Origin: Hymenopus coronatus
Taxonomy: Eukaryota; Arthropoda; Insecta; Mantodea; Hymenopodidae
Assembly: GCA_030762935.1 (NCBI GenBank)
Contig: CM060880.1
Span: 14,625,001 to 14,689,000, forward strand
Direction of reading: 5' to 3'
Length of the DNA stretch: 64,000 nt
Shown here: positions 1-64,000 of the stretch, one piece after another
Layout: each line of letters opens with the position of its first letter
Numbering within the stretch: position 1 is the first letter of the stretch
Made by a program: the position numbers and the translations under genes
Notes under the pieces: model-generated
Database searches by the model: none
What the model saw: only the letters and a program-made list of their open reading frames with translations
What the model was told of the DNA's origin: nothing

Positions 1-170
1 TAAATTGTGTGTTTCAATGTGCTCTACATTTTTTGTGTGGTAAGCTTTTGTCTATCTCTTTACGGTTTAAGAGTTATGCAAAACTCCGTAAAATGTAAAA
101 TGTAAAGCCTCGGTATCGAATTTTTTAGGTACATTACAATACCTTCTCTATAGTACATGTAGGGAAATTA
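1..170 (+). mobile_element. HLE fragment, 3' part, cut by window edge
   Basis: The window opens inside an HLE. The order of conserved blocks matches the family up to the hairpin end, but about 400 bases between the ACGGTTTAAG block and the TCGAATTTTTTAGG block are missing. The 3' end reads GTAGGGAAATTAAAA and abuts the next copy with no spacer. Confidence 0.85.
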
Positions 171-1044
171 AAAATCTGATGTGCTCCATTCACATGACTT
201 TCTCTATTTCTCTGCAACAGATTATTGTTAATAAGCTTATTCTTCTATTTACTTCATGCTAATCGAGAAAAAATTAGCAGAAATTATTTTATAACTTGTT
301 TCATTAAAAGCAGAAGCGAAATAAGGGAGTACCATTGATTAAAGTGATAGTCAAAAGCTGGTTGCTATGTGACTGGAGTTGATTTGTTTGTATGGACAAG
401 AGTTGACAAATTACTGTATGAAAAAATTTTGGTTTTTAAAACTGAAACCAAAAACAAGGAATATCTAAAAAACGATCAACTCCATGAAAAAATGTATATA
501 ACATAAATTGTGTGTTTTAATGTGCTCTACATTTTTGTGCAGTAAGTTTTTGTCCATCTCTTACGGTTTAGGAGCTATGCAAAATTCCGTAAATTTCATC
601 CAGAATAAAGTAAGCTTCCGAGGCTATTCCCAGAAAATTGAAGATATACATTTTGTCAGGTAAATATTTTTAATATACGAAATTTTAATCAAAATTGTTA
701 GAGCCATTTTGAGGAGATCAAAATTTTTTAAAAATGTTCCATGTAAAGGGTTGTTTGTGGTGGGGTTTTTTTTTTTCTCTCAAAATCTTCGTGTCGCATC
801 CCTGGAAGTTACTAAACTTAAATACCAATTTTGGTATTTTACCGACTTTTCGTTTTTGAGCTATCATGTTCACAGACACGCGGACACACACACATACACA
901 CGGACCTTTTTCTGAAAACGGATTTTTTGGATAAAGAGGACCCAAAACATGTATTTCCGGTGATATCTCAGTATGGAATTTTTGGGTGCAATACAATACC
1001 TTCTGTATACAGTATGTACATAGTACGTGTAGAGGAAGTTAAAA
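171..1044 (+). mobile_element. HLE, full length
   Basis: Complete copy of about 874 bases. It starts AATCTGATGTGCTCCATTCAC and ends GTAGAGGAAGTTAAAA after the palindrome around ATGTACATAG. The internal dinucleotide tract is short and appears here as CA near 880-900. It lies head-to-tail behind the previous copy. Confidence 0.9.
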
Positions 1045-1377
1045 TGTATTAATTGCCGGGCAGGAGGGACCGGGGGAGGTAATTTCTATTGAAATATAAA
1101 GATGTGGAGACTGCTGAGGGCGTGAAAACGTAATTTCACGGTACGTGTGCGACAGGCTGTGTACCGAAATAGCCGTTCCACGAATCAGAACAAGTTTAGC
1201 GTCCACCACGGTCCTCTTGCATGATGTCATGGCCTTCTTCAACAAATGTTTGCGTTGAATCGTGCAGTATTATTTCATCTGTTTATGAATTCCACATGGC
1301 TGGACGTTTCCTAATCTGGTATCGCGGCGAGTATGGTGGGAGCACTGCCCCTTCATCACACCTCTTCCCCTAAATTC
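1045..1377. other. unassigned spacer
   Basis: No family recognised. GC content is clearly higher than in the flanking HLEs. No convincing reading frame, RNA gene or repeat partner elsewhere in the window was seen. Confidence 0.5.
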
Positions 1378-1925
1378 AGTTTCTCTGCCCAATATTTTAG
1401 TGCACCCAAAAATTCGATACCGAGAATTCACCGGAAATACATGTTTTGGGACCCCCTGAATCCAAAAAAAATTCGGAAAGAGATCTGTGTCTACGTGTGC
1501 AGCATAACTCAAAAATGAAAAGACGTTAGATACCAAACTTGGTATTTAATTTTGGTATCTTTCAAGGATGCGACACGAAAATTTTCAAGAAAATCCCCCC
1601 ACCCCCGACTACCCTTTAAATGGAACTTTTTTCAAAATTGAAATTTTCTCAAAATATTTTTGATTAAAATATGTATATAAAGATATTTACCTGACAAATA
1701 AAATGTATATCTTGAATTTTCTAGGGATAGAATCTGAAGACTACTTTATTCTGGATGAATTTTACGGAATTTTGCATAACTGTTAAGCCGAAAGACAGAC
1801 AAAGGCTAACTTAACAACAGAAAATGAAGAGCTCATTAAAACACGCAATTTATGTTATATATACTTTTTTCGTAGAGTTGATCGTTTTTGAGATATTCCT
1901 TGTTTTTGGTTTCAGCTTTAAAATA

Positions 1926-2803
1926 CAGGGTTACTACAAAAGAAATAGACAACTTCAACTGCCTGTAAAAAAAAAAATTTAGAGATAGCAACCTAATTAT
2001 TTTGGAGGTATGTTGAGAAACTCTCAAAGTTTCGTTTGTTACTATTGGTAACGCTGTAGTGTTTTGTTTGTTGTTGCAGAAGCTGAAATGGCGGAAAATC
2101 CTGTGGAAAAGGCATTGCGTGTTGGAATTTGCTAGAACGCAATCAGCAACTGTTGGCCAACGACATTTTAGAACACGTTACCACAAAAATGAAATGATGC
2201 GCTCACAAGAACCAGCATCGTCTTCATCATGTCGCAACATGTCGATGCAAAAGTCACGCCGTATGACCTTATCTTCTTCACTCAGAAACTGCAACATCTG
2301 TAATCTGTAAGGCATCATATGCAGTCGCTTCCGCAAGATTTTCCATACAGTTTGCTGTGGAATTTGTAATTGCATGCTTGCCCTAGACGTCGATTTCTGT
2401 GGGCTTCTTATGTAGGCAGAACGAACACGTTCAACGTTTTCTTCCGAAACTCTTGGTCTTCCCGAGCTCTTCCCTTTGCACAAACATCCCGCTGTCTCTA
2501 ATTTTCTATACCAGTCGTAGATTGACTGTCTAGTCGGTGGCGTTTTGTGGTAACGTGTTCTAAAATGTCGTTGGACAACAGTTGCTGATTGCGTTCTAGC
2601 AAATTCCAACACGCAATATGCCTTTTCCACAGGATTTTCCGCCATTTCAGCTTCTGCAACAACAAACAAAACACTACAGCGTTACCAATAGTAACAAACG
2701 ACACTTTGAGAGTTTCTCAACATATCTCCAAAATAATTAGGTTGCTATCTAGTAGTTTTTGTTTTACAGGCAGTTGAAGTCTATTTCTTTTGTAGTAACC
2801 CTG
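1926..2803 (-). mobile_element. IS630/Tc1-type transposon, foldback chimera
   Basis: Element of 878 bases bounded by CAGGGTTACTACAAAAG and its inverse, with TA on both sides (1924-1925 and 2804-2805), the hallmark target duplication of the IS630-Tc1-mariner superfamily. The inverted arms are not short terminal repeats: about 265 bases at 1926-2190 are an inverted copy of 2542-2803, including the start of the transposase gene. The element is therefore the 5' part of a transposon closed by a second, inverted copy of its own 5' end; the normal 3' end is absent. It sits inside an HLE and so is younger than that copy. Confidence 0.85.
2178..2645 (-). pseudogene. IS630/mariner-like transposase, N-terminal part only
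   Basis: The likely start is the Met of MAENPVEK at 2645; the longer frame runs on upstream to 2669. The visible protein is about 150 residues and resembles the helix-turn-helix DNA-binding half of insect IS630/mariner-like transposases: a first helix-rich block (VLEFARTQSATVVQRHFR), then YDWYRKLETAG, a GRPRVSEENVE linker and a second helix-turn-helix with SRASMQLQIPQQTVWKILRK. The D-D-D/E catalytic domain is missing because the frame runs into the inverted 5' arm at about 2190 and stops. It cannot make an active transposase. The same family may include the C-terminal relic at 48963-49418, whose element also ends in CAGGGT next to TA; that link is an inference. Confidence 0.75.
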
Positions 2804-3038
2804 TACATACTTTTCTCATACAAACAAAGGAACTTCAGTCATAGAGCAACCAGCTTTTGAGTATCACTTTAACCAATGCTACTCCCGTATTTAACTTCTA
2901 CTTACAAGGAAGCAAGTAATAAGACTATTTCTGCTATTTTTTTCTCGATTAGCTTGAAGTAAATAGAATAAGCTTTTTAACAATAATTTGTTGCAGAGAT
3001 GTGGAAAAAGTCATGTGAATGGTACACATCAGATTTTT

Positions 3039-3172
3039 GTGTTATGCTGTTCACAGAGGCACACACAGATCTTTTTCTTTTTTGAATTCAGAGTACCCTA
3101 AAACGTGCATTTCAGTGAAATTGCCATGTAGAATTTCGGGGCGGAATACAGTACCGTCTCTACCTATAGCTG
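3039..3172 (+). mobile_element. HLE fragment, 3' end
   Basis: Starts at the GTTATGCTGTTCACAG block and runs to a decayed hairpin region (CCGTCTCTACCTATAGC). It lies in inverted orientation directly against the 5' end of the previous copy. Confidence 0.7.
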
Positions 3173-3185
3173 AACATTGCGTAAT

Positions 3186-3274
3186 TCTAAGGCGTTGAAT
3201 CCATGACTCACTTGAGCATAATCTCACTTAATTCATTGGATTAAATTACCTACCAGGTTAAAAGATGCTACCTT
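3186..3274 (+). repeat. SINE fragment, 3' part (same family as 39002-39262)
   Basis: The stretch around GACTCACTTGAGCATAATC, TTAATTCATTGG and ACCTACCAGGTTAAAAGATG matches the 3' body of the SINE at 39150-39235 with many changes. The tRNA-like head is absent. It is an old, 5'-truncated copy. Confidence 0.5.
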
Positions 3275-4920: not shown

Positions 4921-4924
4921 TGGT

Positions 4925-8997: not shown

Positions 8998-10444
8998 TTT
9001 TTACTTTCTCTATACGTACTATGTACCTAGTGCACAGAGAAGTATTGTATTGCACCCAAAAATTCAAAACCGAGATTTAACAGGGTCCCCTTTATCTAAA
9101 AAAAATTCTCATGTGTTCCATTCACATGACTTTCTCTACTTCTGTGCAATAAATTATTATTTCAAGCTAATCGAGAAAAGTACAAATTTTTCAAAGCTGA
9201 AACCAAAAACAAGGAATATCTCAAAAAACGATCAACTCCTCGAAAAGAATTCATATAACATAAATTGTGTGTTTTGATGAGCTATACATTTTTTGTGTGT
9301 TAAGTTTTTGACCATCTCTAACGGTTTAGCAGTTATGCAAAATTCAGTGAAATTCATCCAGAATAAACTACTCTTAAGAGGCTATTCCCAGAAAATTAAA
9401 GATATATATTTTATTTGTCAGGTAAATATCTTTATTATACGATATTTTAATCAAAATCGTTACAGCCATTTTTAAGAAAACCAAAATTTTCGAAAAAAGT
9501 TCCATGTATTGGGTACTTGGAAGGTGGGAGGATTTTCTTGAAAATGTTCGTGTCGCATCCTTGCAAGGTACCAAACTTAAATACCAAGTTTGGTATTCAA
9601 CGGTCTTTTCGTTTTTGAGCTATGCTATCTACAGACACAGACACGGACCTTTGTCCAAAAATGCTTTTTTTGGATTCAGGGGGACCCAAAATATGTATTT
9701 CCTGTGAAATCTCGGTGTCGAATTTTGGGTGCAATACAATACCTTCTCTATACACTATGTACATAGTACGTGTAGAGAAAATAAAAAGCATTTTCGGAAA
9801 AAAGTGCATGTGTGTGTGTGTGTGTGTGAACACGATAACTCAAAAACCAGAAGTCGGCAAAATACCAAATTTGGTATTTAAGTTTAGTATATTCCAGAGA
9901 TGCGACACGAAGATTTTGAGAAAATCCCCCCACTCCAAACTAACCTTTACATGGAGCTTTTTACGAAATTTTTGATTTTCTCAAAAATGGCTCTAACGAT
10001 TTTGATTAAAATTTCAAATATTAAAGATATTTAGCTGACAAAAAAATTTTATATCTTGAGGTTTCTGGGAATAGCCTCTGAAGAGTACTTTATTCTGGAT
10101 CAATTTTACGGAATTTTGAAGAACTGCTAAACCGTAAAGATGGACTAAAGCTTACTACACGAAAAATATAGAGCACGTTAAAACACACAATTTATGTTAT
10201 ATACATTTTTTTCGTGGAGTACTTCGTTTTCGAGACATTCCTTGTTTTTTGTTTTTGCTTTGAAAAACTTATGCTTTTCTCATACAGGAATTTTCCAAGT
10301 CCTGTCCATACAAACAAAGGAACTTCAGTGACATTATCTATTTTTTTCTCGATTAACATGAAGTAAATAGAAGTATAAGCTTCTTAACAATAATTTGTTG
10401 CAGAGATGTAGAGAAAGTCATGTGAATGGTACACATCAGATGTT
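8998..10444 (-). mobile_element. HLE, full length, split by a nested HLE
   Basis: Starts TTTTTACTTTCTCTATACG. The left part ends at 9100 in CCCTTTATCTAAAAAA; the right part resumes at 9788 with GCATTTTCGGAAAAAAG and runs to ACACATCAGATG. Removing 9101-9787 restores the normal block order without a gap. Confidence 0.9.
9101..9787 (+). mobile_element. HLE nested in another HLE
   Basis: Plus-orientation copy, AAAAATTCTCATGTGTTCC to GTAGAGAAAATAAAAA, with an internal deletion of roughly 130 bases after AATCGAGAAAA. It lies in the A-run of the host copy. Confidence 0.9.
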
Positions 10445-12701: not shown

Positions 12702-13575
12702 TTTTTACTTTCTCTATACGAACTATGCACATAGTGTATAGAGAAGGTATTGCACTCCACCAAAAAATTCGATACCGAGATTTCACCGGAAATATATGTT
12801 TTAGGGTCCCCTTTATCTAAAAAAAAAAAGGATTTTCAGAAAAAGGTCCACATGTGTGTGCGTCCGTGTGTCTGTGAACACGATAACTCAAAAACGAAAA
12901 GTCGGTAAAACACCACACTTTTTATTTAAGTTTAGAATCTTCCAGGGATGCGACACGAAGATTTTGAGAAAAATCCCCCCACCCCAACCTACCCTTTACA
13001 TGGGACTTTTTTCGAAAATTATGATTTTCTAAAAAGTGGCTCTAGCGATTTTCATTAAAATATACTATATTAAAGATATTTACTTGACAAATAAAATATA
13101 TTTTTTGAATTTTCTGGGAATAGCCTCTGAGGAGTACTTTATTCTGAGTGAATTTTACGGAATTTTGTATAACTACTAAACCGTAAGAGATAGATAAAAA
13201 CTTACCACACAAAAAAAAATGTAGAACACATTAAAACACTCAATTAATGTTGTATACAATTTTTTTTCTTGGAGTTGATCGTTTTTGAGATATTCCTTGT
13301 TTTTGTTTTCAGGTTCGAAAATCTTAACTTTTCTCATACAGGAATTTGTCAACTCCTGTCCATACAAACAAAGGAACTTCAGTCACATAGCAACCAGCTT
13401 TTGACCTTCACTTTAACCTATGCTACTCCCTTATTTCCTTTCTACTGACAAGGAAGCAAATAATAAGACTATTTCAGGTCATTTTTTCTCGATTAGCGTG
13501 AAGTAAATAGAAGCATAAGGTTTTTAACTAAAATTTGTTGCAGAGATGTAGAGAAAGTCATGTGAATGGAACACA
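12702..13575 (-). mobile_element. HLE, full length, nested
   Basis: TTTTTACTTTCTCTATACG to GAACACATACGATTTTT, 874 bases, all blocks present. Inserted in the same orientation in a T-run of the outer copy. Confidence 0.92.
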
Positions 13576-13815
13576 TACGATTTTTAGAAATGGTGTGTGT
13601 GTGTGTGTGTGTGTGCGTATAGCATAGCTCAAAAACGAAAAGACCGTTAAATATCAAACTTGGTATTTAAGTTTACTGTCTTCCAAGGACACGACACTAA
13701 GATTTTCAAGAAAATTCCTCCACTCTAAACTACCCTTTACATGGAACAGCTTTCGAAAATTTTGATTTTCTCAAAAAAATGCTCTAACGATGTTGATAAA
13801 AATATCGTATTAGTG
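13576..13815 (-). mobile_element. HLE, outer copy, right part
   Basis: Resumes with AGAAATGGTGTGTGTG exactly where 12701 left off, continues through the GT tract and the CTCAAAAACGAAAAGACCG block, then fades after TTGATAAAAATATCG. Confidence 0.85.
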
Positions 13816-14479: not shown

Positions 14480-15185
14480 AAAAAATCGTATGTGTACCAT
14501 TCACATGATTTTTTCTACATCTCTGCAACAAATTATTGTTAAAATGCTTTTGCCTCTATTTACTTCATGCTGATTGAGAAAAAATTAGCCGAAACAGTCT
14601 TATTACTCGTTTCCTTGTAAGTAAAAGCGAAATAAGGGAGTGCCATAGCTTAAAGTGACAGTCAAAAGCTGGTTGCTGTGTCACTGAAGTTCCTTTATTT
14701 GTATGGATAGCAGGCGACAAATTCCTGTATGATTTTCAAAGCTGAAACTAAAAACAAGAAATATCTTAATAATGATCAACTCCTCGTAAAAAATGTATAT
14801 AACATAAATTGTGTGTTTTAAAGTGCTCCACATTTTTTATGTGGTAAGTTTTTGTCCAACTCTTACGGTTTAGCAGTTATGCAAAATTCCGTAAAATTCA
14901 TCCAGAATAAAGTAGTCTTAAGAGGCCATTCCCAGAAAATTCAAGATATACATTTTATTTGTCAGGTAAATATCTTTAATATACGATATTTTAATCAAAA
15001 TCGTTAGAGTCATTTTTAAGAAAATCAAAATTTTCGAAAAAAGTTCCAAGTAAAGGGTAGTTTAGGGTGGGGGAATTTTTCTCAAAATCTTCGTGTCGCA
15101 TCCCTGGAAGATACTAAACTTAAATACCAAGTTTGATATTTTACCGACTTTTCGTATTTGATTTATCGTGTTCACAGACACACGG

Positions 15186-15216
<31 letters not shown>

Positions 15217-15353
15217 CCATTTTTTGAAATGTTTTTTTATATAAGGGACCCTAAAACATATATTTCCGGTGAAATCTCGGTATCGAATTTTTGGGTGGAG
15301 TACAATACCTTCTCTATACACTACGCACATAGTGCGTATAGAGAAAGTAAAAA
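14480..15353 (+). mobile_element. HLE, full length
   Basis: AAAAAATCGTATGTGTACC to ATAGAGAAAGTAAAAA, 874 bases. The microsatellite is (CA)n of about 30 bases at 15181-15212. The hairpin centre is CTACGCACATAGTGCG, with matched changes in both arms. Confidence 0.92.
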
Positions 15354-17222: not shown

Positions 17223-18070
17223 TTTTTACTTTCTCTACACGTACTATGTACATAGTGTATAGAGAAGGTATTAAACTCCACCCAAAAATTCGATACCGAG
17301 ATTTCACCGGAAATATATGTTTTAGGGTCCCCTTTATCTATATATATATAGATATATTAAAAAAAAAAAAGCATTTTCGGAAAAAGGTCCTGTGTGTGTC
17401 CGTGTGTCTGTGAACACGATAACTCAAAACAAAAAGTCGGTAAAATATCAAACTTGGTATCTAAGTTTAGTATCTCCCCACCCTAAACTTCCCTTTCCAT
17501 GGAACTTTTTTCGAAAAGTTTGATTTTCCCAAAACATGGCTCTAACGATTTTGATTAAAATGTCGTATATGAAAGCTATTTACCTGACAAATAAAATGTA
17601 TGTCTTGAATTTTCTGGGAATAGCCTCTGAAGACTACTTTATTCTGGATAAATTTTACGGAATTTTGCATAACTGCTAAACCGTAAGAGATGGAGAAAAA
17701 CTTACCACATAAAAATGTGGAGCACTTTAAAACACACAATTTATGTTATATACATTTTTTTCGAGGAGTGGATCGTTTTTGAGATATTCCTTGTTTTTTG
17801 TTTCAGCTTTGAAAAACGTATACTTTTCTCATACAGGAATTTGTCAACTGCTGTCCGTACAAACAAAGGAACTTCAGTGACATAGCAACCAGCTTTTGAC
17901 TATCACTTTAACCTATGGGACTCCCTTAAATCGCTTCTACTTACAAGAAAGTAAGTAATAAGACTATTTCTGCTGATTTTTTCTCGATGAAGTAAATAGA
18001 AGCATAAGCTTTCTAACAATAATGTGTTGCAGAGATGTAGAGAAAGTCATGTGATTGGAACACAGATTTT
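17223..18070 (-). mobile_element. HLE, nearly full length
   Basis: TTTTTACTTTCTCTACACG to GAACACAGATTTTT. A TATATATATAGATATAT insert expands the internal A-run at about 17336-17358. The block around the ATCTCCCCACCC C-tract is shortened. Confidence 0.9.
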
Positions 18071-18152
18071 TTTATAAGCTGGTTTGTTTGTTTTCTTTGA
18101 AATCTCGGTATGGAATTTTTGGTTAGCTCATACGTCCCAGAGATAGTAAAAA
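18071..18152 (+). mobile_element. HLE fragment, 3' end
   Basis: GAAATCTCGGTATGGAATTT followed by a worn terminus CCCAGAGATAGTAAAAATG, inverted relative to and touching the previous copy. Confidence 0.6.
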
Positions 18153-22215: not shown

Positions 22216-23172
22216 TATTTTTAAAAGTTTATTTTTTTATTGTTACACTTATATACCCCCTTTAACATCTAAAGTAATATCGGGGGCTTTGCACTTGAAA
22301 CAAATCATTCATTGTCTGTACGTTCTTTTTACTTTCTCTACACGTACTATGTACATAGTGTATAGAGAAGGTATTGTATTGCACCCAAAAATTCGATACC
22401 GAGATTTCACCGGAAATACATGTTTTGGGTCACCCCTGAATAAAAAAAAAACATTTTTGGAATAGGTTCCGTGTATGTGTGAGCGTGCGTGTGTGTGTTT
22501 GTGTGTCTGTGGACAGCATAGCTCAGAAACGAAAAGACCGTTAAATACCAAACTTGGTATTTAACTTTGGTATCTTCCAAGGATGCAACACGAAGATTTT
22601 CAAGAAAATCCCCCCACCCAAAACTATCCTTTACATGGAACTTTTTTCGAAAATATTAATTTTCTCAAAAATGGCTAACGATTTTGATTAAAATATCGTG
22701 TAAAAGATATTTACCTGACAAATAATATGTATATCTTGAATTTTTTTGGGAATAGCCTCTGAAGACTACTTTATTCTGGAGGAATTTTGCAATGGAAATG
22801 GACAAAAACTTACCACACAAAAATGTAGAGCACTTGTTTCACTTCTACGTACAAGGAAGCAAGTAATAAGAGTATTTCTCCTAATTTTTTCTCGATTAGC
22901 GTGAAGCAAATAGAAGAATAAGCTTATTAACAATAATTTGTTACACAGGAGAGAAAGTCATGTGAATGGAACACATAAGATTTTTTAGATGTGGTTTACA
23001 TCATTTTATTTTACTCAAACACCCACGCATTCACTCTCATATATATACTTCCAGACCTTATGGGAGATAGGGAATAATTCTAGCTAAAGAAAAATTCCCC
23101 GCCCCTGCCGGGAATCGAACCCGGGACCTCCGCGTGAGAAGTCAGCTCGCTGACCACTCGACCACGGAGGCC
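22216..23172 (-). repeat. tRNA-derived SINE, split by an HLE
   Basis: Read on the minus strand the element starts GGCCTCCGTGGTCGAGTGG (A box TGGTCGAGTGG) and has the B box GGGTTCGATTCCC at 23109-23121, so its head is tRNA-like with a possible Glu-type loop (GACTTCTCACGC). The body has GGGGCGGGGAA, GGTCTGGAAGTA and TTTGAGTAAAATAAAATG. It is interrupted at 22326-22986 by an HLE; the 3' part then follows (AGAACGTACAGACAATG, GCAAAGCCCCCGATATTAC) and ends in an A-rich tail. Without the HLE it is about 296 bases. Related copies: 29875-30112 and 52773-53022. Confidence 0.85.
22326..22986 (-). mobile_element. HLE inserted in a SINE
   Basis: TTTTTACTTTCTCTACACG to GAACACATAAGATTTTTT. An internal deletion removes the region between TTTTGCAATGGAAATGG (ACGGTTTAG side) and the CACTTGTTTCACTTCTACG block. 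Confidence 0.92.
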
Positions 23173-27415: not shown

Positions 27416-28286
27416 TTTTTACTTTCTCCATATGCACTATGTACATAGAGTATAGCGAAAGTATTGCACTCCACCAAAAAATTCGATACCGAGATTTCAC
27501 CGGAAATATATGTTTTAGGGTCCCCTTTATCTAAAAAAAACATTTTCGGAAAAAGGTCCGTGTGTGTGTGTGTGTGTGTCCGTGTGTCTGTGAATACGAT
27601 AACTCAAAAACGAAAAATAGGTAAAATACCAAACTTGGTATTTAAGTTTAGTATTTTCCAGGGATGCGACACGAAGATTTTGAGAAAAATCCCCCCACCC
27701 CAACTACCCTTTATATGGAACTTTTTTCGAAAATTTTGATTTTCTCAAAAATGGCTCTAACGATTTTGATTAAAATTGTGTATATTAAAGATATATACCT
27801 GACAAATAAAATGTATATCTTGAATTTTCTGGGAATAGCCTCTGAAGAGTAGTTTATTCTGGAAGAATGTTACTAAATTTTGAATAGCTGTTAAACCGTA
27901 AGAGATGGAAAAAAACTTACTACACAAAAAATGTAGAGCACGTTAAAACACACAATTTATGTTATATATATTTTTCTCGTGGAGTTCGTCGTTTTTGTGA
28001 CATTCCTTATTTTTGGTTTCTGCTATGAAAAACATTTCTCATACAGGAATTTGTCAACTGCTGTCCATACAAACAAATGAACTTCAGTGACATATCAACC
28101 AACTTTTGACTATCACTTTAACCTATGGTACTCCCTTATTTCACCTCTACTTACAAGGAAGCAAGTAATATGGCTATTTCTGCTGTTTTACTGATTAGCA
28201 TGAAGTTAATAGAAGTATAAGTTTTTAAGAATAATTTGTTGCAGGAATATAGAGAAAGTCATGTGAATGGTACGCATAAGATTTTT
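27416..28286 (-). mobile_element. HLE, full length, subgroup C
   Basis: TTTTTACTTTCTCCATATGC to GGTACGCATAAGATTTTT. It has the subgroup markers GTGGAGTTCGTCGTTTTTG and GACATTCCTTATTTTTGG shared with 44298, 57480, 58322 and 63062. Confidence 0.92.
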
Positions 28287-28337: not shown

Positions 28338-29190
28338 TTTTTACTTTCTCTATACGTGCTATGTACATAGTGTATAGAGAAGATATTGCACTCCACCGAA
28401 AAATTCGATACCGAGATTTCACTGGAAATATATGTTTTAGGGTCCTCTTTATCTAAAAAAAGTATTTTCAGAAAAAGGTCCGTGTGTCTGTGAACACGAT
28501 AACTCAAAAACGAAAAGTCTGTCAAATACCAAACTTGGTATTTAAGTTTAGCATCTTCTAGGGATGCAACACGAATATTTTGAGAATAATACCCCTACTC
28601 CAAACTACCCTTTACATGGAACTTTTTTTCGAAATTTTTGATTTTCTTAAAAATGGCTCTAACGCTTTTGATTAAAAATTCGTACATTAAAGGCATTTAC
28701 CTCACAAATAAAATGTATATTTTGAATTGCCTGGGAATAGTGTCTGAAGACTACTTTACTCTCGATGAATTTTACGGAATTTTGCATAACTGCTCAACCG
28801 TAACAGATCCACAAAAACGTACCACACCAAAAATGTAGAGCACGTTAAAACACACAGTCTATGTTATATACATTTTTGTTTTTTTGTTTGGAGTTGATCG
28901 TTTTTGAGATATTCCTTATTTTTGGTTTCACTTTTTAAAAACTTACACTTTTCTCATACAGGAATTTGTCAACTCCTGTCCATACAAACAAAGGAACTGC
29001 AGTCTCTTAGCAACTAGCTTTTGACTATCACTTGAGCCTATGGTACTCCCTTATTTCGCTTCTACTTACAAGTAATAAGACTGTTTCTCCTATTTTCTTC
29101 TCTATTAGCATGAAGTAAATAGAAGCATAAGCTTTTTAACAATAATTTGTTGCAGAGAAAGTTATACGAATGGAACACATCAGATTTTTA
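28338..29190 (-). mobile_element. HLE, full length
   Basis: TTTTTACTTTCTCTATACGTG to GAACACATCAGATTTTT, 853 bases. The GT tract is minimal (CCGTGTGTCTGTG). Confidence 0.92.
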
Positions 29191-33712: not shown

Positions 33713-34550
33713 ATTTTTTATTTTCTCTACACGTACTAAGTGCATAGTGTATAGAGAAGGTATTGAATTGCACCCAAAAATTCCATACCGAGATTTACAT
33801 GTTTTGAGACCACCAGAATCCAAAAAAAAAGCATTTTTTGAAAAATGTCCATGTGTGTGTCTGTCTGCCTGTGGGCAGCATAGCTGAAAAACGAAAAGAC
33901 CGTTAAATACCAAATTTGGTATTTAAGTTTAGTATCTTCCAGGGATGCGACACGAAGATTTTGAGAAAAAATTCCCCCCACCCCCAATTACCCTTTACAT
34001 GGAAAAAATTTCGAAAATTTTAATTTTCTCAAAAATGGCTCTAACGATTTTGATTAAAATTTCGTATATTAAAGATATTTACCTGACAAATAAAATGTAT
34101 ATTTTGAATTTTCTGGGAATAGCCTCTGAAGACTACTTTATTCTGGATGAATTTTACGGAATTTTGTGTAACTACTAAACCATAAGAGATGGACAAAAAC
34201 TTACGCACAAAAAATGTAGGGCATATTAAAACACACAATTTATGTGATATACATTTTTTTCGTAGAGTTGATCGTTTTTTAGATATTCCTTTTTTTTTCA
34301 TACAGGAACTTGTCAACTGCTGTCCATACAAACAAAGGAACTTCATTTACATAGCAACCAGCTTTTGCCTTTCACTTTAACCTATGGTACTCCCTTATTT
34401 CGCTTCGACTTACAAAGAAGCAAGTAATAAGACTATTTCTGCTAAGTTTTTCTCGATTAGCATTAAGTAAATAGAAGAATAATCTTTTTAACAATAATTT
34501 GTTGCAGAGATGTAGAGAAAGTCGTGTGAATGGAATATATCCGATTTTTT
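33713..34550 (-). mobile_element. HLE, full length
   Basis: TTTTTATTTTCTCTACACG to GGAATATATCCGATTTTTT. About 60 bases around the TTTCAGCTTTGAAAAAC block are missing (CCTTTTTTTTTCATACAGG). Confidence 0.92.
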
Positions 34551-35091: not shown

Positions 35092-35850
35092 AAAAAAATC
35101 TGATCTGTTCCATTCACATGTCTTTCTCTACATCTCTGAAACAAATTATTGTTAAAAAGCTTATGCATATATTTACTTTATACTAATCGAGAAAAAATTA
35201 GCAGAAATAGTATTATTGCTTGCTTCCTTGTACGTAGAAGGAAATAAGAGAGTACCATAGGTTAAAGTGATAGTCAAAAGCTGGTTGCTATGTGACTGAA
35301 ATTCCTTTGTTTGTATAGAAAGGAGTTGACAAATTCCTGAATGAGAAAAGTATAAGTTTTTCAAAGCTGAAACCAATAACAAGGAATATCTCAAAAACGA
35401 CAAAATTCACGGAAAAATGTATATTACATAAATTGTGTGTTTTAACGTGCTCTACATTTTTGTGGGGTGAGCTTTTGTCCATCTCTTGCAGTTTAGTAGT
35501 TATGCAAAATTCCGTAAAATCGATCCAGAATAAAGTAGTCTACAGAGACTATTCCCAGAAAATTCAAGATATAGATTTTATTTGTCAGGTAAATATCTTT
35601 AATGTATGATATTTTAATCAAAATCTTTAGAGCCATTTTTGAGAAAATCAAAATTTTAGTAAAACGTTCCATGTAAAGGGTTGTTGGGGGTGGGGTGGGG
35701 GTTCTTGAAAATCTCCATGTCGCATCCTTGGAAGATACCGAACTTAAATACCAAACATCATTTCTGGTAAAATCTGGGTATGGAATTTTTGGGTGGAATG
35801 CAATACTTTCTCTATACACTATGTATATAGTACGTGTAGAGAAAGTAAAA
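35092..35850 (+). mobile_element. HLE with deletion at the microsatellite
   Basis: AAAAAAATCTGATCTGTTCC to GTAGAGAAAGTAAAA. The whole GT/CA region between CTTAAATACCA and AACATCATTTCTGGTAAAAT is deleted. Abuts the next copy head-to-tail. Confidence 0.92.
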
Positions 35851-36748
35851 AAATCTTATGTGTTACACTCACATGACTTTCTCTAGCTGTTCTACCAACT
35901 TCATACATAAGATGATTCTTCTTTCTGCACCTTGCTAATCGAGGTACTCATTAGCACAGTGTTGTTATTACTTAGTTCCGTATAAGTAGGAAGAAAATAA
36001 GGGAATACACTAGGCTAAATCGATAGTCACATGTTTTAAAAGCTGTCGTTATGCGATTGGCTTAACAAATCGCTTCTTTTCTTGGCCAGGAGTAGAATAA
36101 AAGAAAAACGGACACTCACGTCTGAGAAAAGTATAAGTACTTCACAACTGAAACTAATAACAATGAATACCTCGTTAACGGCAAGCTCCACGAAAAAAAT
36201 GTACATGAAATAAGTTGTGTATTTTAACAAGCCCTACATTTTTTGTATAGTAAGTTTTTGTCTATCGCTTACGGTTTACTAGTTATGCCAAATTAAGCAA
36301 AATTCATCCAGAATAAACAGGTCTTTAGAAGCTATTCCCAGAAAATTCAAGATATACATTTTATTTGTCAGGTAAATAAATATCTTTAATGTACGATATT
36401 TTAACCAAAATCGTTAGAGCCATGTTTAAGAAAATAAAAATTTTCGAAAAAAAAATCCATGTAAAAGGTAGTTTGGGGTGGGGGATTTTTCTCAAAATCT
36501 TAGTGTCACATCCCTGGAAGATACTGAACTTAAATACCAGGTTTGGTATTTTAGCTACTATTCGTTTTTGAGTTATCGTGCTCACAGACACACACACACG
36601 GACCTTTTTCTGGAAATACCTTTTTTGGATTCAGGGGGTCCTAAAACATGTATTTCCGGTGAAATCTCGACATCGAATTTTTGGGTGGAATACAATACTT
36701 CTCTATCCCTATGTACATTGTACATACGGGGCTAGAGAATGTAAAAAA
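35851..36748 (+). mobile_element. HLE type B, full length
   Basis: Best complete type-B copy: 5' end TCTTATGTGTTACACTCAC, then CTTTCTCTAGC; 3' hairpin TATGTACA-T-TGTACATA and GGGGCTAGAGAATGTAAAAA. Both ends carry the TAGC/GCTA variant. Confidence 0.93.
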
Positions 36749-44297: not shown

Positions 44298-45011
44298 AAA
44301 AATCTGATGTGTACCATTCACATGACTCTCTCCATATCCCTGCAACAAATAATTATTAAAAAGCTTATACTTCTATTTACTTTATGCTAATCAGAAAACA
44401 TTAGCTGAAATAGTCTTATTACTCGCTTCCTTGTAAGTAGAAGGGAAATAAGGGACAACCGTAGGTTAAAGTGATAGTCAAAAGCTGGTTGCTATGTCAA
44501 TGAAGTTCCTTTGTTTATATGGAGAGGAGTTGACAAGTTCCTGTATGAGAAAAGTATACGTTTTTCATAGCAGAAACCAAAAATAAGGAATGTCACAAAA
44601 ACGACGAACTCCACGAAAAAAATGTATATAACATAAATTGTGTGTTTTAATGTGCTCTACATTTTTTGTGTGGTAAGTGTTTGTCCATCTCTTACGGTTT
44701 AGCAGTTATTCAAAATTTAGTAAAATTCATCCAGAATATACTCTTCAGAGGCTATTCCCAGGAAATTCAAGATAGACATCTCATTTGTCAGGTAAATATG
44801 TTTAATATCCGAAATTTTAATCAAAATCGTTAGAGCCATTTTCGAGAAAATCAAAATTTTCGAAAAAAGTTCCATGTAAAGGGTAGTTGGGGGTGGGGGG
44901 ATTTTTCTCAAAATCTTCGTGTCGCATCCCTGGAAGATACTAAACTTAAATACCAAGTTTGGTATTTTACCGACTTTTCGTTTTTGAGTTATCGTGTTCA
45001 CAGACACACAC

Positions 45012-45052
<41 letters not shown>

Positions 45053-45194
45053 CCTTTTTGTGAAAATACTTTTTTTGGATATTGGGGGCCCTAAAACATA
45101 TATTTCGGGTGAAATCTCGGTATCGAATTTTTGGGTGGAGTGCAATACTTTCTCTATACACTATGTACATAGCGCCTATGCAGAAAGTAAAAAA
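44298..45194 (+). mobile_element. HLE, full length, subgroup C
   Basis: AAAAATCTGATGTGTACC to GCAGAAAGTAAAAA. (CA)n of about 40 bases at 45005-45049. Shares AACGACGAACTCC and TTTTTCATAGCAGAAACC with the other subgroup C copies. Confidence 0.93.
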
Positions 45195-46873: not shown

Positions 46874-47274
46874 GGCAAATTCACGCTCCCTGTCTGTTAA
46901 TTCACTAAAAAATAAAGAGGGGGTGGACAAAATCGTATTCACATATGTATGGGCATTAACTGTTGACTCGAAAAATTTGGGTCTATAACGCTTTCTCTAC
47001 TAATGGCGCACCATACACCAATTTTTTCGTCATGAAGGGGTATTTCATGAACATTATTAGGTTTTACCAGAGCTCACACATATCTATGAAGGAGGAAGCA
47101 AGCCTCGTCCGTCAAAAATATTAAATTTGGGTCATTTTCGTCATATACACTATTGAGAGTCCACACACAAAATATGTTATCACAAGAATCATAAATAAAT
47201 ACACGCTATGCATAGAAACCAAATGCTGAGTCATAATACACTTTGTGACTAAGTACAGGATAAAATAATAAAAC
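46874..47274. other. unassigned spacer
   Basis: Flank of the minisatellite; no family recognised. Confidence 0.45.
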
Positions 47275-48869: not shown

Positions 48870-49534
48870 CATTTAAGTTATACAGAACTGACACATTTCT
48901 TTCCTTAATTATTCCGTTGGAAATTCATTCAATGACCCAATTTTAGCACTAAATTAAGTAGAATGTTCTGGAGTTTCGATTCCTTGTCACTAGATGCGCA
49001 GATGTTTAACCAGACTGTGAACACTGCAGAGTACCGACTGATTTTAATGGAGTTTGTTGAGCAACTGGACGATGTAGAACTGAGCCAAGGATATTTTCAG
49101 CAAGATGGCGCTACATTGCATACATCAAATGAATCCATGAACCTAATTGCAAGTTCCTTTGACGACCGGATAATTTCCAGGAACCTGTGGCCACCGAGAT
49201 CTCCGGATTTGACATCGCCGAACTTCTTTCTATGGGGTTACTTAAAAGACAGGGTTTACGCCACACGTCCCCAGACATTGGACGATCTGAAGCACAACAC
49301 CACAAAGGAGATTCAAGCTATTGACAACAGAGTCCTCCAACGAGTGGCCAGTAACATGGAACGACGTGTTGAGTTGTGCCTTATGCAGGATGGAGGACAT
49401 TTGCAACATTTGCTATAGAGGTAAATAATATCACAAAATTCCTCTACAATTTAGGTATAATAAGTGGTCGCTAGCACAATTCGTTTTGAAACAATTAAAG
49501 AAAGAAAAGTGTCAGCTCTATATAAATCACCCTG
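48870..49534 (+). mobile_element. IS630/Tc1-type transposon, 5' part deleted
   Basis: The right end TCACCCTG next to TA and the inner arm GTGTCAGCTCTATATAAATC are matched at the left by ATACAGAACTGACAC and TTTCTTTCCTTAATTATTCC, so both terminal repeats are represented; the outermost left bases are gone. The terminal CAGGGT is shared with the element at 1926-2803. Confidence 0.75.
48963..49418 (+). pseudogene. IS630/mariner-like transposase, C-terminal half
   Basis: About 150 residues of the catalytic domain: AEYRLILMEFVEQLDD, YFQQDGATLHTS with the second Asp, then WPPRSPDLTSPNFFLWGYLK and the usual tail DRVYATRPQTLDDLK. The first Asp and the DNA-binding domain are missing. In the SPDLTSPNFF motif the position that is D or E in active relatives appears to be N, which would kill catalysis on its own. 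The frame is otherwise open, so the loss of the 5' part may be recent or the frame fortuitously intact. The start at 48963 is only the first ATG after the deletion point. Confidence 0.82.
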
Positions 49535-50754: not shown

Positions 50755-51058
50755 TCGTTTATTTACGGTTTACTAGTACCTAATGCAAAAGGCATTTCAG
50801 AGGCTATTCCCTGAAAAAATCCATGATATATATAATTTGTCAAGAAAATGCCTTAAACATAAGGCATTATAATCAGAACCGTTAAAACTATTTTTCAAAA
50901 AATCAATTTTTACTTTCTCTACACGCACTATATACATAGTGTATAGAGAAGGTATTGCACTCCACCAAAAAATTCGATACCGAGATTTCACCGGATAAAT
51001 ATATGTTTTAGGGCCCCTTATATAAAAAAAAAATTCACAAAAATGTCCGTGTGTATGT

Positions 51059-51118
<60 letters not shown>

Positions 51119-51760
51119 GTGAACACGATAACTCACAAACGAAAAGTCGGTAAAATACCAAACTTGGTATTTAAGTTTAGTATCTTCCCGGGATGCGACA
51201 CGAACATTTTGGGAGAAAATATCGTATATTAAAGATATTTTAAAGACTACTTTATTCTGGGTCAATTTTACGGAATTTTGCATAACTGCTAAACCGTAAG
51301 AGATGGACAAAAACTTACCACACAACAAATGTAAAGCACTTAAAAACACACAATTTATGCCATATACACTTTTTTCGTGGAGTTGATTGTTTTTGAGATA
51401 TTCCTTGTTTTTGATTTCAGCTATAAAAACCATACTTTTATTATACAGAACTTTGTGAACTCCTGCCCATACAAACAAAGGAACATCAGTCACATAGCAA
51501 CCAGCTTTTGACTATCACTTTAACCTATGCTACTCCCTTATTTCGATTCTACTTACAATGTTGCAAGTAATAAGACTATTCCTGCTAATTTTTTCTCGAT
51601 TAGCAGGAAGTAAATAGAAGCATAAGTTTTTTAACAATAATTTATTGCAGAGTTGTAGAGAAAGTCATGTGAATGGAACACATCAGATTTTTTCTAAAAA
51701 GTTTCCATTAAAAATCTTCGTGTGCCATCCTTGGAAGATACTAATCATAAACATCAAGTT
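50755..51760 (+). mobile_element. HLE interior, split by a nested HLE
   Basis: Left part TTTATTTACGGTTTACTAG to TTTTTCAAAAAATCAA (50906); right part from 51693, TCTAAAAAGTTTCCATT, AAAATCTTCGTGTGCCATCC, GGAAGATACTAATC. Together they form one continuous HLE interior. Confidence 0.75.
50907..51692 (-). mobile_element. HLE, nested, with internal deletion
   Basis: TTTTTACTTTCTCTACACGC to GAACACATCAGATTTTTT. GT tract of about 50 bases at 51065-51115. The C-tract and following block are deleted (GGGAGAAAATATCG). Confidence 0.92.
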
Positions 51761-58321: not shown

Positions 58322-58446
58322 TTTTTACTTTCTCTAGAGGCACTATGTACATAGTGGATAGAGAATGTATTGCACTCCACCAAGAATTAGATACCGAGAT
58401 TTCACCGGAAATATATGTTTTAGGGTCCCCTTTATCTAAAAAAAAG

Positions 58447-58486
<40 letters not shown>

Positions 58487-59205
58487 TGTGTGTCCGTGTG
58501 TCTGTGAACACGATAACTCAAAAACGAAAAGTAGATCAAATACCAAACTTGGTATTTAAGTTTAGTATCTTCCAGGGATGCGACACGAAAATTTTGAGAA
58601 AAATCCCCCACCCCCAACTACCCTTTACATGGAACTTTTTTCGAAAATGTTGATTTTCTCTAAAATGGCTCTAACGATTTTGATGAAAATTTCGTATATT
58701 AAAGATATTTACATGACAAATAAAATATATATCTTGAATTTTCTGGGAATAGCCTCTGAAGAGTAGTTTATTCTGGATGAATTTTACTGAATTTTGAATA
58801 ACTGCTAAACCGTAAGAGATGGACAAAAACTCCACAAAAAATGTAGAGCACGTTAAAACACACAATTTATGTTATATACGTTTTTTCGTGGAGTTCGTCG
58901 TTTTTGTGACATTCCTTATTTTTGGTTTCTGCTATGAAAAACTTATACATTTCTCATACAGGAACTTGTCAACTCCTATCCATATAAACAAAGGCACTCC
59001 ATTGACATAGCAACCAGCTTTTGACTATCACTTTAACCTACGGTTGTCCCTTATTTCGCTTCAACTTACAAGAAAGCGAGTAATAAGACTATTTCTGCTA
59101 TTTTTTTCTGATTAGCATGAAGTATATAGAAGTATAAGCTTTTTAAGGATTATTTGCTGCAGGGATATGGAGAAAGTCATGTGAATGGTACACATCAGAT
59201 TTTTT
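58322..59205 (-). mobile_element. HLE, full length, subgroup C
   Basis: TTTTTACTTTCTCTAGAGGC to GGTACACATCAGATTTTTT. Very close to the previous copy and to 63062-63965 over the whole interior. Confidence 0.94.
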
Positions 59206-60060: not shown

Positions 60061-60121
60061 TGGATTTCTCCATAATAAAACATTGGAACACACATGATAT
60101 TTTAAAATACGTAACATAAAT

Positions 60122-61271
60122 ATACCCCTGCTTATATTGTACATAGTGTATAGAGAAGGTATGCATTACACCCAAAATTCCATACCGATATCTCAACGGA
60201 AATATATATGATCAGCTGGGTCCAAAAAAAAAAAGCATTTTAGAATAAGGTCCGTGCACAGCATAGCTCTAAAACTAAAACACAATTAAATACCAAAGAT
60301 TTTTAATTAAATCCCCCCCATCCTAAACTAACCTTTACATTGATCATTTTTCGAAAATGTTGATTTTCCAAAACTGGCTTTAACGATTTTGATTCAAATT
60401 CCTATGTTTAAGATATTTTTATGACAAACGAAATGCATATCTTAGATTTCTGGGAATAGCCTCTAAAGACCTCTTCATTCTGGATGATTTTTGCATAACT
60501 GGCTAACCGTAAAAGATAGACAAAAATTGCTACACAAAAATGTAGATCACCTTAAAACACACAATTTTTCGTGGAGTTGATCGTTTTTACTTTCTCTACA
60601 CGTACTATGTACACAGTGTATAGAGGAAGTGTATTCCACTCAAAAATTTGATACCGAGATTTCGCCGGAAATACATGTTTTAGGATCCCCCGAAACATTT
60701 TCACAAACAGGTTACTTTTCTCATACAGGAATTTGTCAACTCCTGTCCATACAAACAAAGGAACATCAGTCATATAGCAACCAGCTTTTGATTATCACTT
60801 TAACCTACGATACTCCCTTATTTCGCTTCTACTTACAAGGAAGCAAGTAATAAGACTATTTCTACTAATTTTTTCTCAATTAGCATGAAGTAAATAGAAG
60901 CATAAGCTTTTTAACAATACTTTCTTGCAGAGAAGTAGAGAAAGTCATGTGAATGGAACACATCAGGTTTTTTTTAGATATTCCTTGTTATCGGTTTCAG
61001 CTTTAAAAAACTTATTTTTCTCATACAGGAATTTATCTACTGCTGTCCATAGAAACAAAGGAACTTCAGTCATATAGCAACCAGCTTTTGACTGTCACTT
61101 TAACCTATGGTACTCCCTTTTACGCTTCTACTTACAAGGAAGCAAGTGATAAGAATATTTCTGGTATTTTTTTCTTGATTACCTTAAAGTAAATAGAAGC
61201 ATAAGATTTTCAACAGTAATTTGTTGCAGAGATGTAGAGAAAGTCATGTGAATGGAGCATATCAGGTTTTT
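60122..61271 (-). mobile_element. HLE, outer copy of a nested pair
   Basis: Recognisable from TTGTACATAGTGTATAGAG through AAAACACACAATTTTTCGTGG and GTTGATCG at 60583, interrupted by 60584-60972, and resuming at 60973 with TTTAGATATTCCTTGTTATC to GGAGCATATCAGGTTTTT. Confidence 0.88.
60584..60972 (-). mobile_element. short HLE nested in an HLE
   Basis: Only 389 bases: TTTTTACTTTCTCTACACG, normal 3' region to GGATCCCCCGAAACATTTTC, then directly the TTACTTTTCTCATACAGG block and a full 5' end GAACACATCAGGTTTTT. Confidence 0.92.
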
Positions 61272-61830: not shown

Positions 61831-61992
61831 AAAATTATTTTACTTAATGAACTACACCGAAAAAAGTTGCGAGATTGTGCACGTGACAGATATAAGTAAT
61901 TTGAGATCGGCGATGCATGGTCCCCGGATAAACATAACGCAACTTCAAAGCGTTAAACGTGTGGGTATCAGGTGTCAATGCACAGCAGGTTG

Positions 61993-62690
61993 AAAATATC
62001 TGATATGCACCATTCACATGACTTTCTCTACATCTCTGCAACGAATTATTGTTAAAAAGCTTATGCCTCTATTTACTTTATGCTACTCGAGAACAAATTA
62101 GCAGAAATAGTCTTATTACTTGCTTCCTTGTAAGTAGAAGCGAAATAAGGGAGTACCATAGATTAAAGTCATAGTCAAAAGCTGGTTGCTATGTGACTGA
62201 AGTTCCTTTGTACGCACAGGAGTTGACAAAATTCCTGTATGAGAAAAATAAGTTTTTAATAGCTGAAACAAAAAACAATATCTCAACAACGATCAACTCC
62301 ACGAAAAAAATGTATATAACATAAATTGTGTGTTTTAACGTGCTGTACATTTCTTTGTAGTAAGTTTTATCTAAGTATTACGGTTTAACAGTTATGCAAA
62401 ATTCCGTAAAATTCGTCCAGAATAAAGTACTCTTCAGAGGCTATTCCCAGAAAATTCAAAATATACATTTTGCTTCTGAGGTAAATATCTTTAATATATG
62501 ATATTTGAATCAAAGTCGTTTGAGTCATTTTTGCGAAAATCAAAATTTTCGAAAAAAGTTCCTTGTAAAGGGTAGTTGGGGTGGGGTGATTTTTCTCAAA
62601 ATCTTTGTGTCGCATCCCTGGAAGATACTAAACTTAAATATCAAATTTGGTATTTTACCGACTTTTCGTTTTTGAGTTATCGTATTCACA

Positions 62691-62740
<50 letters not shown>

Positions 62741-62883
62741 CCTTTTTGTGAAAATGCTTTTTTTTTTATATAAGGGACCCTAAAACATATATTTCCGGTG
62801 AAATCTCGGTATCGAATTTTTGGGTGGAGTGCAATACCTTCTCTATACACTATGCACATAACGCGTGTAGAGAAAGCAAAACT
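61993..62883 (+). mobile_element. HLE, full length
   Basis: AAAATATCTGATATGCACC to GTGTAGAGAAAGCAAAA. (CA)n of about 45 bases at 62692-62736. Confidence 0.93.
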
Positions 62884-63061
62884 GGCTTAGAATGTCTTTA
62901 AAACTGCTGCCCGAGCATAGAACTATCGATTTTTAGCAGCTCGTTACTAGCGTTCTCAAAGATTTAATGTTGCAAACATCTGTAAAATCTTGAACGAATC
63001 ACTTGACAGTGCGACACTGAGCATTCATTAACCACGAGTTGTATAACCCACTCTGGAGGCG

Positions 63062-63201
63062 TTTTTACTTTCTCCATAAGCACTATGTACATAGTGTATA
63101 GAGAAAGTATTGCACTCCACCAAAAATTCGATACCGAGATTTCACCGGAAATATATGTTTTAGGGTCCCCAATATCCAAAAAAAGCATTTTCACAAAAAG
63201 G

Positions 63202-63250
<49 letters not shown>

Positions 63251-63965
63251 GTGTGTCTGTGAACACGATAACTCAAAAAAGAAAAGTCGGTAAAATACCA
63301 AACTTGGTATTTAAGTTTAGTATCTTCCAGGGATGCGACACGAAGATTTTGAGAAAAATCCCCCCACCCCGAACTACCCTTTACATGGAACTGTTTTCGA
63401 AACTTTTGATTTTCTAAGAAATGGCTCTAACGATTTTGATTAAAATTTCGTATATTAAACATATTTACCTGACAAATGAAATGTTTATCTTGAATTTTCT
63501 GGGAATAGTCTCTGAAGAGTAGTTTATTCTGGATGAATTTTACTAAATTTTGAATGTCTGATAAACCGTAAGAGATGGACAAAAACTTACTACACAAAAA
63601 ATGTAGAGCACTTTAAAACACACAATTTATGTTATATACATTTTTTTCGTGGAGTTCGTCGTTTTTGTGACATTCCTTATTTTTGGTTCCTGCTATGAAA
63701 AACGTATACTTTTCTCATACAGGAACTTGTCAACTCCTATCCATATAAACAAAGGAACTTCATTGACATAGCAACCAGCTTTTGACTATCACTTTAACCT
63801 ACGGTTGTCCCTTATTTCGCTTCTACTTACAAGGAAGCGAGTAATAAAACTATTTCTGCTATTTTTTTCTGATTAGCATAAAGTAAATAGAAGTATAAGC
63901 TTTTTAAGAATTATTTGTTGCAGGGATATGGAGAAAGTCATGTGAATGGTACACATCAGATTTTT
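63062..63965 (-). mobile_element. HLE, full length, subgroup C
   Basis: TTTTTACTTTCTCCATAAGC to GGTACACATCAGATTTTT, 904 bases, GT tract about 45 bases at 63204-63248. One of the least worn copies and a good reference for the family. Confidence 0.95.
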
Positions 63966-63973
63966 ATTATTAT

Positions 63974-64000
63974 GTTTTTTTACTTTCTTTATACGCACTA
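63974..64000 (-). mobile_element. start of another HLE, cut by window edge
   Basis: TTTTTTTACTTTCTTTATACG begins nine bases after the previous copy, so the HLE field continues beyond the window. Confidence 0.75.

Follow-up and report, generated by a model that had tools for sequence, protein, structure and literature searches.

A very abundant family of putative non-autonomous Helentron derivatives in the genome of Hymenopus coronatus, and the head-to-tail clusters formed by its copies

RESULTS

A single repeat family covers about half of the window

A stretch of 64,000 bases of the Hymenopus coronatus genome (C1:14625001-14689000, the window; the genome has 3,126,739,099 bases in 384 contigs) consists largely of copies of one repeat family, which is almost certainly a HINE family, that is, a non-autonomous derivative of Helentrons. 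This kind of element is already known; what is notable about the present family is its scale and the head-to-tail alignment of its copies. An 876-bp consensus was built from 18 full copies, 11 from the window and 7 from elsewhere, which were 85.6–92.9% identical to it. In blastn comparisons the consensus covered 33,166 of the 64,000 bases (51.8%) in 95 pieces, and one window copy used as the query covered 31,130 bases in 96 pieces. The reversed window, which served as the control, gave 66 pieces with a total of 413 bases, and the five that were printed were all in the GT microsatellite part. The 27-nt 3′ terminus was matched 27 times in the window with at most three mismatches (seven times exactly), and the 35-nt 5′ terminus 21 times within the same limit, compared to 0.00 matches of each expected from 100 dinucleotide shuffles. 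These data agree with the original prediction, made from the sequence of the window, that one family fills over half of it, and they add precise ends. The full copies quoted there are real, and the end of one of them, placed at 13575, was moved to 13585. The copies and parts of copies to which we refer below are as follows (percentages give identity to the consensus).

63062..63965, plus strand: full HINE copy, the type copy, which reads 5′ to 3′ in HINE sense (blastn, consensus 1-876, 90.8%)
63062..63109, plus strand: 5′ terminus of the type copy, TTTTT and palindromic 5′ subterminal inverted repeat (subTIR) (5′ pattern match 63062-63096; self-inverse match of consensus 5-48 at 63066-63109)
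63205..63261, plus strand: GT microsatellite inside the type copy (Tandem Repeats Finder)
63939..63965, plus strand: 3′ terminal hairpin and TTTTT of the type copy (exact 27-nt terminus; the 3′ subTIR is just upstream)
170..1044, minus strand: full HINE copy (89.6%)
12702..13585, plus strand: full HINE copy nested in another copy (blastn)
14481..15353, minus strand: full HINE copy (91.5%)
17223..18071, plus strand: full HINE copy (85.6%)
27416..28286, plus strand: full HINE copy (92.9%)
28338..29189, plus strand: full HINE copy (87.0%)
33715..34549, plus strand: full HINE copy (86.1%)
44298..45193, minus strand: full HINE copy (91.1%)
58322..59204, plus strand: full HINE copy (89.5%)
61994..62881, minus strand: full HINE copy (89.9%)
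35849..36747, minus strand: full copy of a divergent HINE subfamily (76.9%), with its 3′ end head-to-tail with copy 35094-35851
35094..35851, minus strand: internally deleted copy, the 5′ T-run of which overlaps the 3′ T-run of copy 35849-36747

The Kimura distance to the consensus had a median of 0.11 (range 0.05–0.31; 51 window pieces longer than 200 bases), which indicates that the family in the window is not a fresh burst. The family includes at least one divergent subfamily, consisting of copies 35849-36747, 37434-38280, and 18693-19301 together with a copy at locus L045. Its identity to the consensus was 77–84%, and the identity between the L045 copy and the three from the window was 88–92%. 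As had been predicted, GT/CA microsatellites are located inside several window copies (Tandem Repeats Finder), and the copies have no coding capacity. The open reading frames (ORFs) within them are short, e.g., 147 aa in copy 44298-45193, and no similarity to Helentron proteins was found in the 64-kb window. No Rfam match at the gathering threshold was found in the window.

The ends have the layout of a HINE

The correct orientation of the element is the opposite of the one in the original prediction: the palindrome and the stem–loop described there as asymmetric ends both exist, but the palindrome marks the 5′ end and the stem–loop the 3′ end. In HINE sense, the consensus starts with TTTTTACTTTCTCTACACGCACTATGTACATAGTGTATAGAGAAGG and ends with TGTAGAGAAAGTCATGTGAATGGTACACATCAGATTTTT. 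The 5′ TTTTT is followed by the palindromic subTIR ACTTTCTCTACA (consensus 6-17), and the 3′ subTIR TGTAGAGAAAGT, located 27 nt before the end, is followed by a small hairpin, with a stem of ATGTG and CACAT ending 9 nt before the terminus, and by TTTTT. The two subTIRs, which are 5 nt from the 5′ end and 27 nt from the 3′ end, are complementary at 12 of 12 nt, so that the inverted repeat said to link the ends is confirmed. The 5′ palindrome of the consensus, folded as DNA, is far more stable than its shuffles (z −3.2).

HINEs are recognized by subTIRs of 12–15 bp, one close to the 5′ end and the other some distance inside the 3′ end, and by a 5–10 bp palindrome near the 3′ terminus. In the passages of a previous study that deal with mites, the HINE subTIRs are 2–4 nt from the 5′ end and 38–60 nt from the 3′ end, and the elements have T-rich ends and a palindrome close to the 3′ terminus and leave the target unmodified (PMC4067079). 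The present family shares with HINE/DINE-1 elements, as described in the same passages, the palindromic 5′ subTIR, the matching 3′ subTIR, the distal 3′ hairpin, T-rich ends with T's owned by the element, a TT or T-run target, the inner microsatellite, the high copy number, and the coexistence in one genome with coding Helentrons that have these ends. It differs from them in the position of the 3′ subTIR (27 nt from the end compared to 38–60 nt in mites) and of the 5′ subTIR (5 nt compared to 2–4 nt), in having coding relatives that are under the subfamily cut-off, and in a copy number estimated to be of the order of 3 × 10^5. The HINEs of Crassostrea gigas (PMC7492417, in the part concerned, and as cited in PMC7992393) are also non-autonomous, genome-wide Helentron derivatives with subTIRs and a microsatellite. 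They carry satellite-like repeats (PMC7492417), while the present consensus has no central tandem repeat and the clusters are made of whole elements. The ends TTTTTAC and GATTTTT differ from the 5′ TC, the 3′ CTRR, and the A/T insertion of canonical Helitrons. The missing CTRR had been taken as a ground for considering another class; it is indeed lacking, but this is expected for Helentrons.

Coding Helentrons share both ends with the family

A PIF1 profile search of the genome pointed to a locus at C11:16912188 (L041 and L042, together C11x). It contains ORFs for DUF6570, for a Rep-like protein, for a helicase (618 aa, uninterrupted by stops), and for an endonuclease, with profile matches to DUF6570 (E 3e-10), PIF1 (E 3e-26), and the endonuclease PF14529 (E 2e-8). 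A PHEH sequence seen by eye, which is HUH-like, also points to Rep. The HINE-type 3′ terminus AGCAGAGAAAGTTATGTGAATGTAGAACATCAGATTTTT is located about 0.9 kb past the endonuclease. The helicase ORF gave 100 matches in the genome, with the best candidates scored, or about 41 loci if matches up to 15 kb apart are merged, and endonuclease similarity was detected in eight of nine further Helentron loci. The protein search with this ORF gave 377 proteins among 7,993 candidates scored; several of the 120 listed, e.g., P0002, have both PIF1 and PF14529, and among the matches listed such proteins came also from Temnothorax americanus, Oedothorax gibbosus, and Holothuria leucospilota. With DUF6570, PIF1, PF14529, and the shared ends, the locus on C11 and its kin resemble Helentron/Helitron2 elements (Rep/helicase/endonuclease), from which the window elements differ in coding for nothing. 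The longer element with the same ends, which the original prediction proposed to look for, was found as to its helicase and endonuclease, with a weak match for Rep.

The homology between Helentrons stops exactly at the HINE 3′ terminus in six of ten loci, namely C11x and, among nine further 3′ flanks, L045, L047, L049, L051, and L052, which are homologous to C11x up to this point. In the 15 pairwise comparisons of these six complete ends the last 60 nt were 77–93% identical, while the next 60 nt were 33–46% identical, which defines the HINE-type terminus as the boundary of the element. Compared to the HINE consensus, the same ends had 81–95% identity in the 36–42 nt that aligned. According to published cut-offs, a family is defined by an identical subTIR of at least 11 bp and a subfamily by at least 80% identity over the last 60 bp. 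The 11-nt sequence GTAGAGAAAGT is common to the consensus, L045, L047, L051, and L052, while C11x and L049 share fewer than 11 subTIR nt with the consensus.

A HINE-like 5′ leader in sense orientation was present in five of nine 5′ flanks (C11x and L054-L061). The leader of L061 corresponds to HINE 1-397 and is joined directly to Helentron-specific sequence. Those of L058 (HINE 71-548) and L059 (187-591) belong to a mutual homology that spans both leader and Helentron. The leader of L056 (HINE 1-369) is separated from the Helentron part by about 290 bases of other sequence, and in C11x (HINE 1-869) a HINE-like tail is located ahead of the Helentron part. Judged from these alignments, the sequence common to HINE and Helentron extends from the 5′ end to about position 590 and, on the 3′ side, covers about 40 nt.

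Some further observations were made on the coding elements. The sole PDB sequence match of the Helentron ORF upstream of Rep (L041:4139-4528) was the deubiquitinating enzyme 8adb (E 0.25); Helentrons with herpes-tegument-like deubiquitinase domains are mentioned in the relevant part of a previous report (PMC9741609). Four near-identical Helentron helicase fragments at C16:139564038, 139736342, 139891064, and 140049651, about 155–172 kb apart, are probably a large segmental tandem duplication. Two Helentron copies with equal stop counts, C21:292948302 (plus strand) and 292957296 (minus strand), which are inverted and about 7 kb apart, are probably an inverted duplication. The region C16:121777001-121793000, considered as a Helentron candidate, was rejected because by eye it resembles a broken canonical Helitron.

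The family is very abundant and unevenly distributed

A genome-wide count of exact matches to the 27-nt 3′ terminus gave 75,744 (38,087 + 37,657; control, 0), or 24 per Mb. Its seven exact matches in the window correspond to 109 per Mb, so that the window is about 4.5 times richer than the average. The numbers of ends found with no, at most three, and at most six mismatches were 15, 51, and 62 in 310,733 bases examined, from which 2.6–3.1 × 10^5 ends, roughly 3 × 10^5, were estimated genome-wide; this abundance is uncertain, because the bases behind the extrapolation are enriched in Helitron and Helentron loci. Scaling from the window gave an estimated genome fraction of about 12%. Eight 2.5-kb stretches at hand-chosen round coordinates, none of which was dropped, contained 26% family sequence (5,191 of 20,000 bases, 0–52% each; two stretches beside the window were counted apart), and 30 canonical Helitron loci contained 1.2% (1,248 of 104,076 bases). 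The dependence of these values on the sample shows that the density of the family is uneven. In the parts of the literature concerned, Helitrons are given as 6% and 6.6% in Myotis and Heliconius (PMC4067079), and helitrons as 7–20% of grasshopper repeatomes (PMC7486953). An ancient Helitron burst is reported in the Hymenopus coronatus genome paper, the relevant section of which describes no family (PMC12908712). Keyword searches of open-licence literature found no report of this HINE family, and a scan of viral contigs, from which records of this genome are possibly excluded, gave no match to the exact 3′ terminus.

The largest contig, C21 (545,668,161 bases, 17% of the genome), is possibly the X chromosome. 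None of the 51 genome matches listed for one HINE copy was on C21, but two sampled stretches of this contig contained 14% and 0% family sequence. On the same contig there were 34 of 112 PF14214 matches and about 15 of the 41 Helentron helicase loci. Depletion of HINEs together with enrichment of coding copies on C21 would be interesting, if true.

Insertions occur beside T-runs

Among 5′ ends found by pattern (n = 111), the fifth T was present in 81%, and the preceding base was A in 47% and T in 23%. The sequence after 78 3′ ends was T-rich, with a T frequency of 0.38–0.55 at positions 2–8 past GATTTT. In 29 full copies, flank identities of 2, 3, 4, and 5 nt were found in 2, 1, 0, and 0 copies, compared to shuffled means of 1.6, 0.7, 0.4, and 0.0. 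After the T's were stripped from the flanks, identities of 2, 3, and 4 nt were found in 6, 1, and 0 copies, compared to 1.3, 0.5, and 0.04 in shuffles. The absence of a target duplication apart from homopolymers, which had been predicted, thus holds for 3–5 nt but is open to question for 2 nt; in two of the six copies with 2-nt identity, the right neighbor, as seen by eye, was another family copy.

Empty sites were taken from insertions into other copies or repeats. In six of the seven a T-run was present, with the T's on the element's own strand and the insertion at the 5′ edge of the run; as several target copies are diverged, exact T counts at these sites are uncertain. The sites are given below in HINE sense, with a slash at the insertion point.

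L007: GTCCG/TTTTTC, the G being missing in the filled site
22326..22985, plus strand, internally deleted copy in an unrelated repeat: GTTC/TTTAAG, in a relative at 29881-30108; a second relative (L003) reads GTTATATACG
12702..13585: GCA/TTTTCAG, by eye
50907..51692, plus strand, copy inserted at a TTTT run within an antisense copy: TCAAAA/TTTTCG
9102..9787, minus strand, internally deleted copy nested in another copy: TGC/TTTTTTTAG
60584..60972, plus strand, short internally deleted copy nested in another copy: ATCG/TTTTTGAG

Neighboring copies are aligned head-to-tail

Ends abutting within 12 bases were head-to-tail in eight cases, and head-to-head or tail-to-tail in none, in 354,241 bases. 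This sample is enriched in family-rich loci, and four of the eight junctions are at Helentron loci. Exact-pattern counts over the whole genome gave 11,226 head-to-tail junctions (gap 4–16; none in the backwards control) and 68 tail-to-tail junctions (gap 4–24; one in the control); the head-to-head count comes from the local sample. In all five testable pairs from the eight junctions the neighbors were not nearest relatives, and they ranked 5 to 58 among 76–78 units, at distances of 0.11–0.25. Three junctions at C1:9442752-9444537 are 880 bases apart and look like one array. At Helentron loci, L057 has three sense HINE units upstream of its Helentron, and the units L057:1713-2615, L058:1-691, and L059:1-374 represent one divergent HINE lineage in sense orientation (85–89% identical to each other, 66–74% to the consensus). 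This suggests, from the alignments, that HINE and Helentron composites moved together.

DISCUSSION

The explanation that best fits these data is that the family is a HINE, which has kept the Helentron 5′ terminus, several hundred bases of the 5′ leader, and about 40 bases of the 3′ terminus, and has lost the genes. A Helentron protein would recognize the subterminal repeats and the 3′ hairpin in trans, one strand would be replicated by a rolling-circle mechanism, and the product would be inserted beside T-runs. Because both ends of the element have a T-run on the same strand, copies could land at the ends of earlier copies in the same direction, which would build head-to-tail clusters. The original prediction that rolling-circle machinery is supplied elsewhere is consistent with the helicase/endonuclease elements that share the ends, but these are a sister subfamily, and mobilization in trans is what we infer from the shared ends.

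Several observations weigh against this explanation or loosen it. C11x matches Rep weakly (PF14214, E 0.002, which does not reach the profile's cut-off), the coding copies look dead, with the C11 region consisting of several separate ORFs, and stops are present in nine of the ten best helicase matches. The homology of L046, L050, and L053 is lost before the terminus, and the terminus of L048 has a hairpin deletion. The HINE copies upstream of L054 and L060 are antisense, L055 has none, the Helentron of L057 is 5′-truncated, and nothing that clearly corresponds to HINE positions of about 600–835 was seen in the Helentrons compared. In all six loci, the last 60 nt of the Helentrons are 66–71% identical to the HINE consensus, below the 80% subfamily cut-off, so that the exact partner of the HINE is not seen among them; by the published cut-offs the coding Helentrons are classed in the same family, as another, sister subfamily, and not as the immediate partner. 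The 3′ hairpin alone folds no better than shuffles (z −0.65). A T-run is lacking in one of the two relatives of the 22326 site, and the seventh empty site (L006) is within a TA repeat without a T-run; the L006 copy nonetheless has five T's at both ends, which indicates that these T's are largely the element's own. The 2-nt excess after T-stripping (6 of 29 compared to 1.3), which was reached by 0.05% of 2,000 shuffles, is unexplained. The strength of the assignment to HINEs comes from the shared ends and is not changed by this excess.

A rival reading is that the family is a miniature inverted-repeat transposable element (MITE) with terminal inverted repeats (TIRs), moved by a DDE transposase, e.g., of Tc1/mariner type. 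The 2-nt excess, the 12-nt inverted repeat between the ends, the mariner-like and DUF4817 helix–turn–helix (HTH) ORFs in the window, and the abundance of Tc1 elements reported in the relevant part of the Hymenopus coronatus genome paper (PMC12908712) fit this proposal. However, such a MITE has terminal inverted repeats and a target-site duplication of fixed length, while the repeats of the present family are subterminal and asymmetric, duplications of 3 nt or more are absent in the 29 full copies, the T-run targeting is strand-specific, and the copies have a head-to-tail bias. As both ends are common to helicase/endonuclease elements, the TIR-type MITE is refuted for practical purposes. No DDE transposase or reverse transcriptase element with HINE ends was met, although no search aimed at such elements was made. 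Almost as improbable is that the family is moved by the genome's own canonical Helitrons (PF14214 matches of families A, B, and C). These are present, with 112 PF14214 matches and helicase partners, but the family makes up only the 1.2% noted above around 30 of them, and their 1.5-kb flanks, short enough to make this a partial test, contain no HINE end except for HINE copies in L017, L022, and L024. In L040, the one locus followed far beyond the helicase, the next domains, more than 2 kb on, belong to an endonuclease and to a reverse transcriptase of non-LTR (long terminal repeat) type, and no Helentron-type endonuclease was seen there. These 30 loci were rejected as the HINE source, since they are other families that HINE ends do not bound in the flanks examined.

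The clusters, in turn, could be concatemers, in which the rolling circle bypasses the 3′ terminator and several units are inserted at once. Tandem arrays of Helitrons are attributed to terminator bypass in the corresponding part of a previous study (PMC4067079), and both the array-like spacing of the three junctions on C1 and the divergent upstream unit shared by L057, L058, and L059, as in a composite moved together, are consistent with it. On the other hand, the fact that neighbors in the five pairs tested are not closest relatives favors oriented independent insertion over fresh concatemers, which makes concatemers a rather unlikely source of the clusters in general. The head-to-tail bias and the pairing of units that are not nearest relatives both follow if insertion reads the strand of the T-run and existing ends serve as targets. 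Read-through may also happen, given the composites and the 880-base array. A wider proposal, which we make tentatively and with somewhat less than even confidence, is that one HINE family forms an eighth to a quarter of the 3.1-Gb genome and organizes itself: its T-run ends would be preferred landing sites that fix direction, arrays would arise by serial targeted insertion and not by read-through, and Helentrons would gain HINE arrays as leaders and sometimes move with them.

These data link a repeat of very high abundance to coding Helentrons related to it, and they provide a name and ends for annotating sequence that might otherwise be called generic Helitron or unknown. In a genome with an estimated 3 × 10^5 copies the rules of rolling-circle insertion are measurable. 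The two origins of head-to-tail rolling-circle arrays, which are a candidate source of satellite DNA, become testably distinct.

Other features of the window

At 60714-61271 a tandem pair is made not of whole units but of the 3′-terminal third (element positions 618-876 and 578-876). A tRNA-Val (gac) called by ARAGORN at 23100-23171 on the minus strand adjoins a HINE copy. A 42-bp minisatellite with 23.6 copies and several open frames is located at 47272-48264. Relics of DDE transposons at 2178-2681, 20281-20730, 41126-41677, and 48936-49418 contain a DUF4817 HTH, two Mos1-type HTHs (one below the cut-off), and a weak DDE_3 match.

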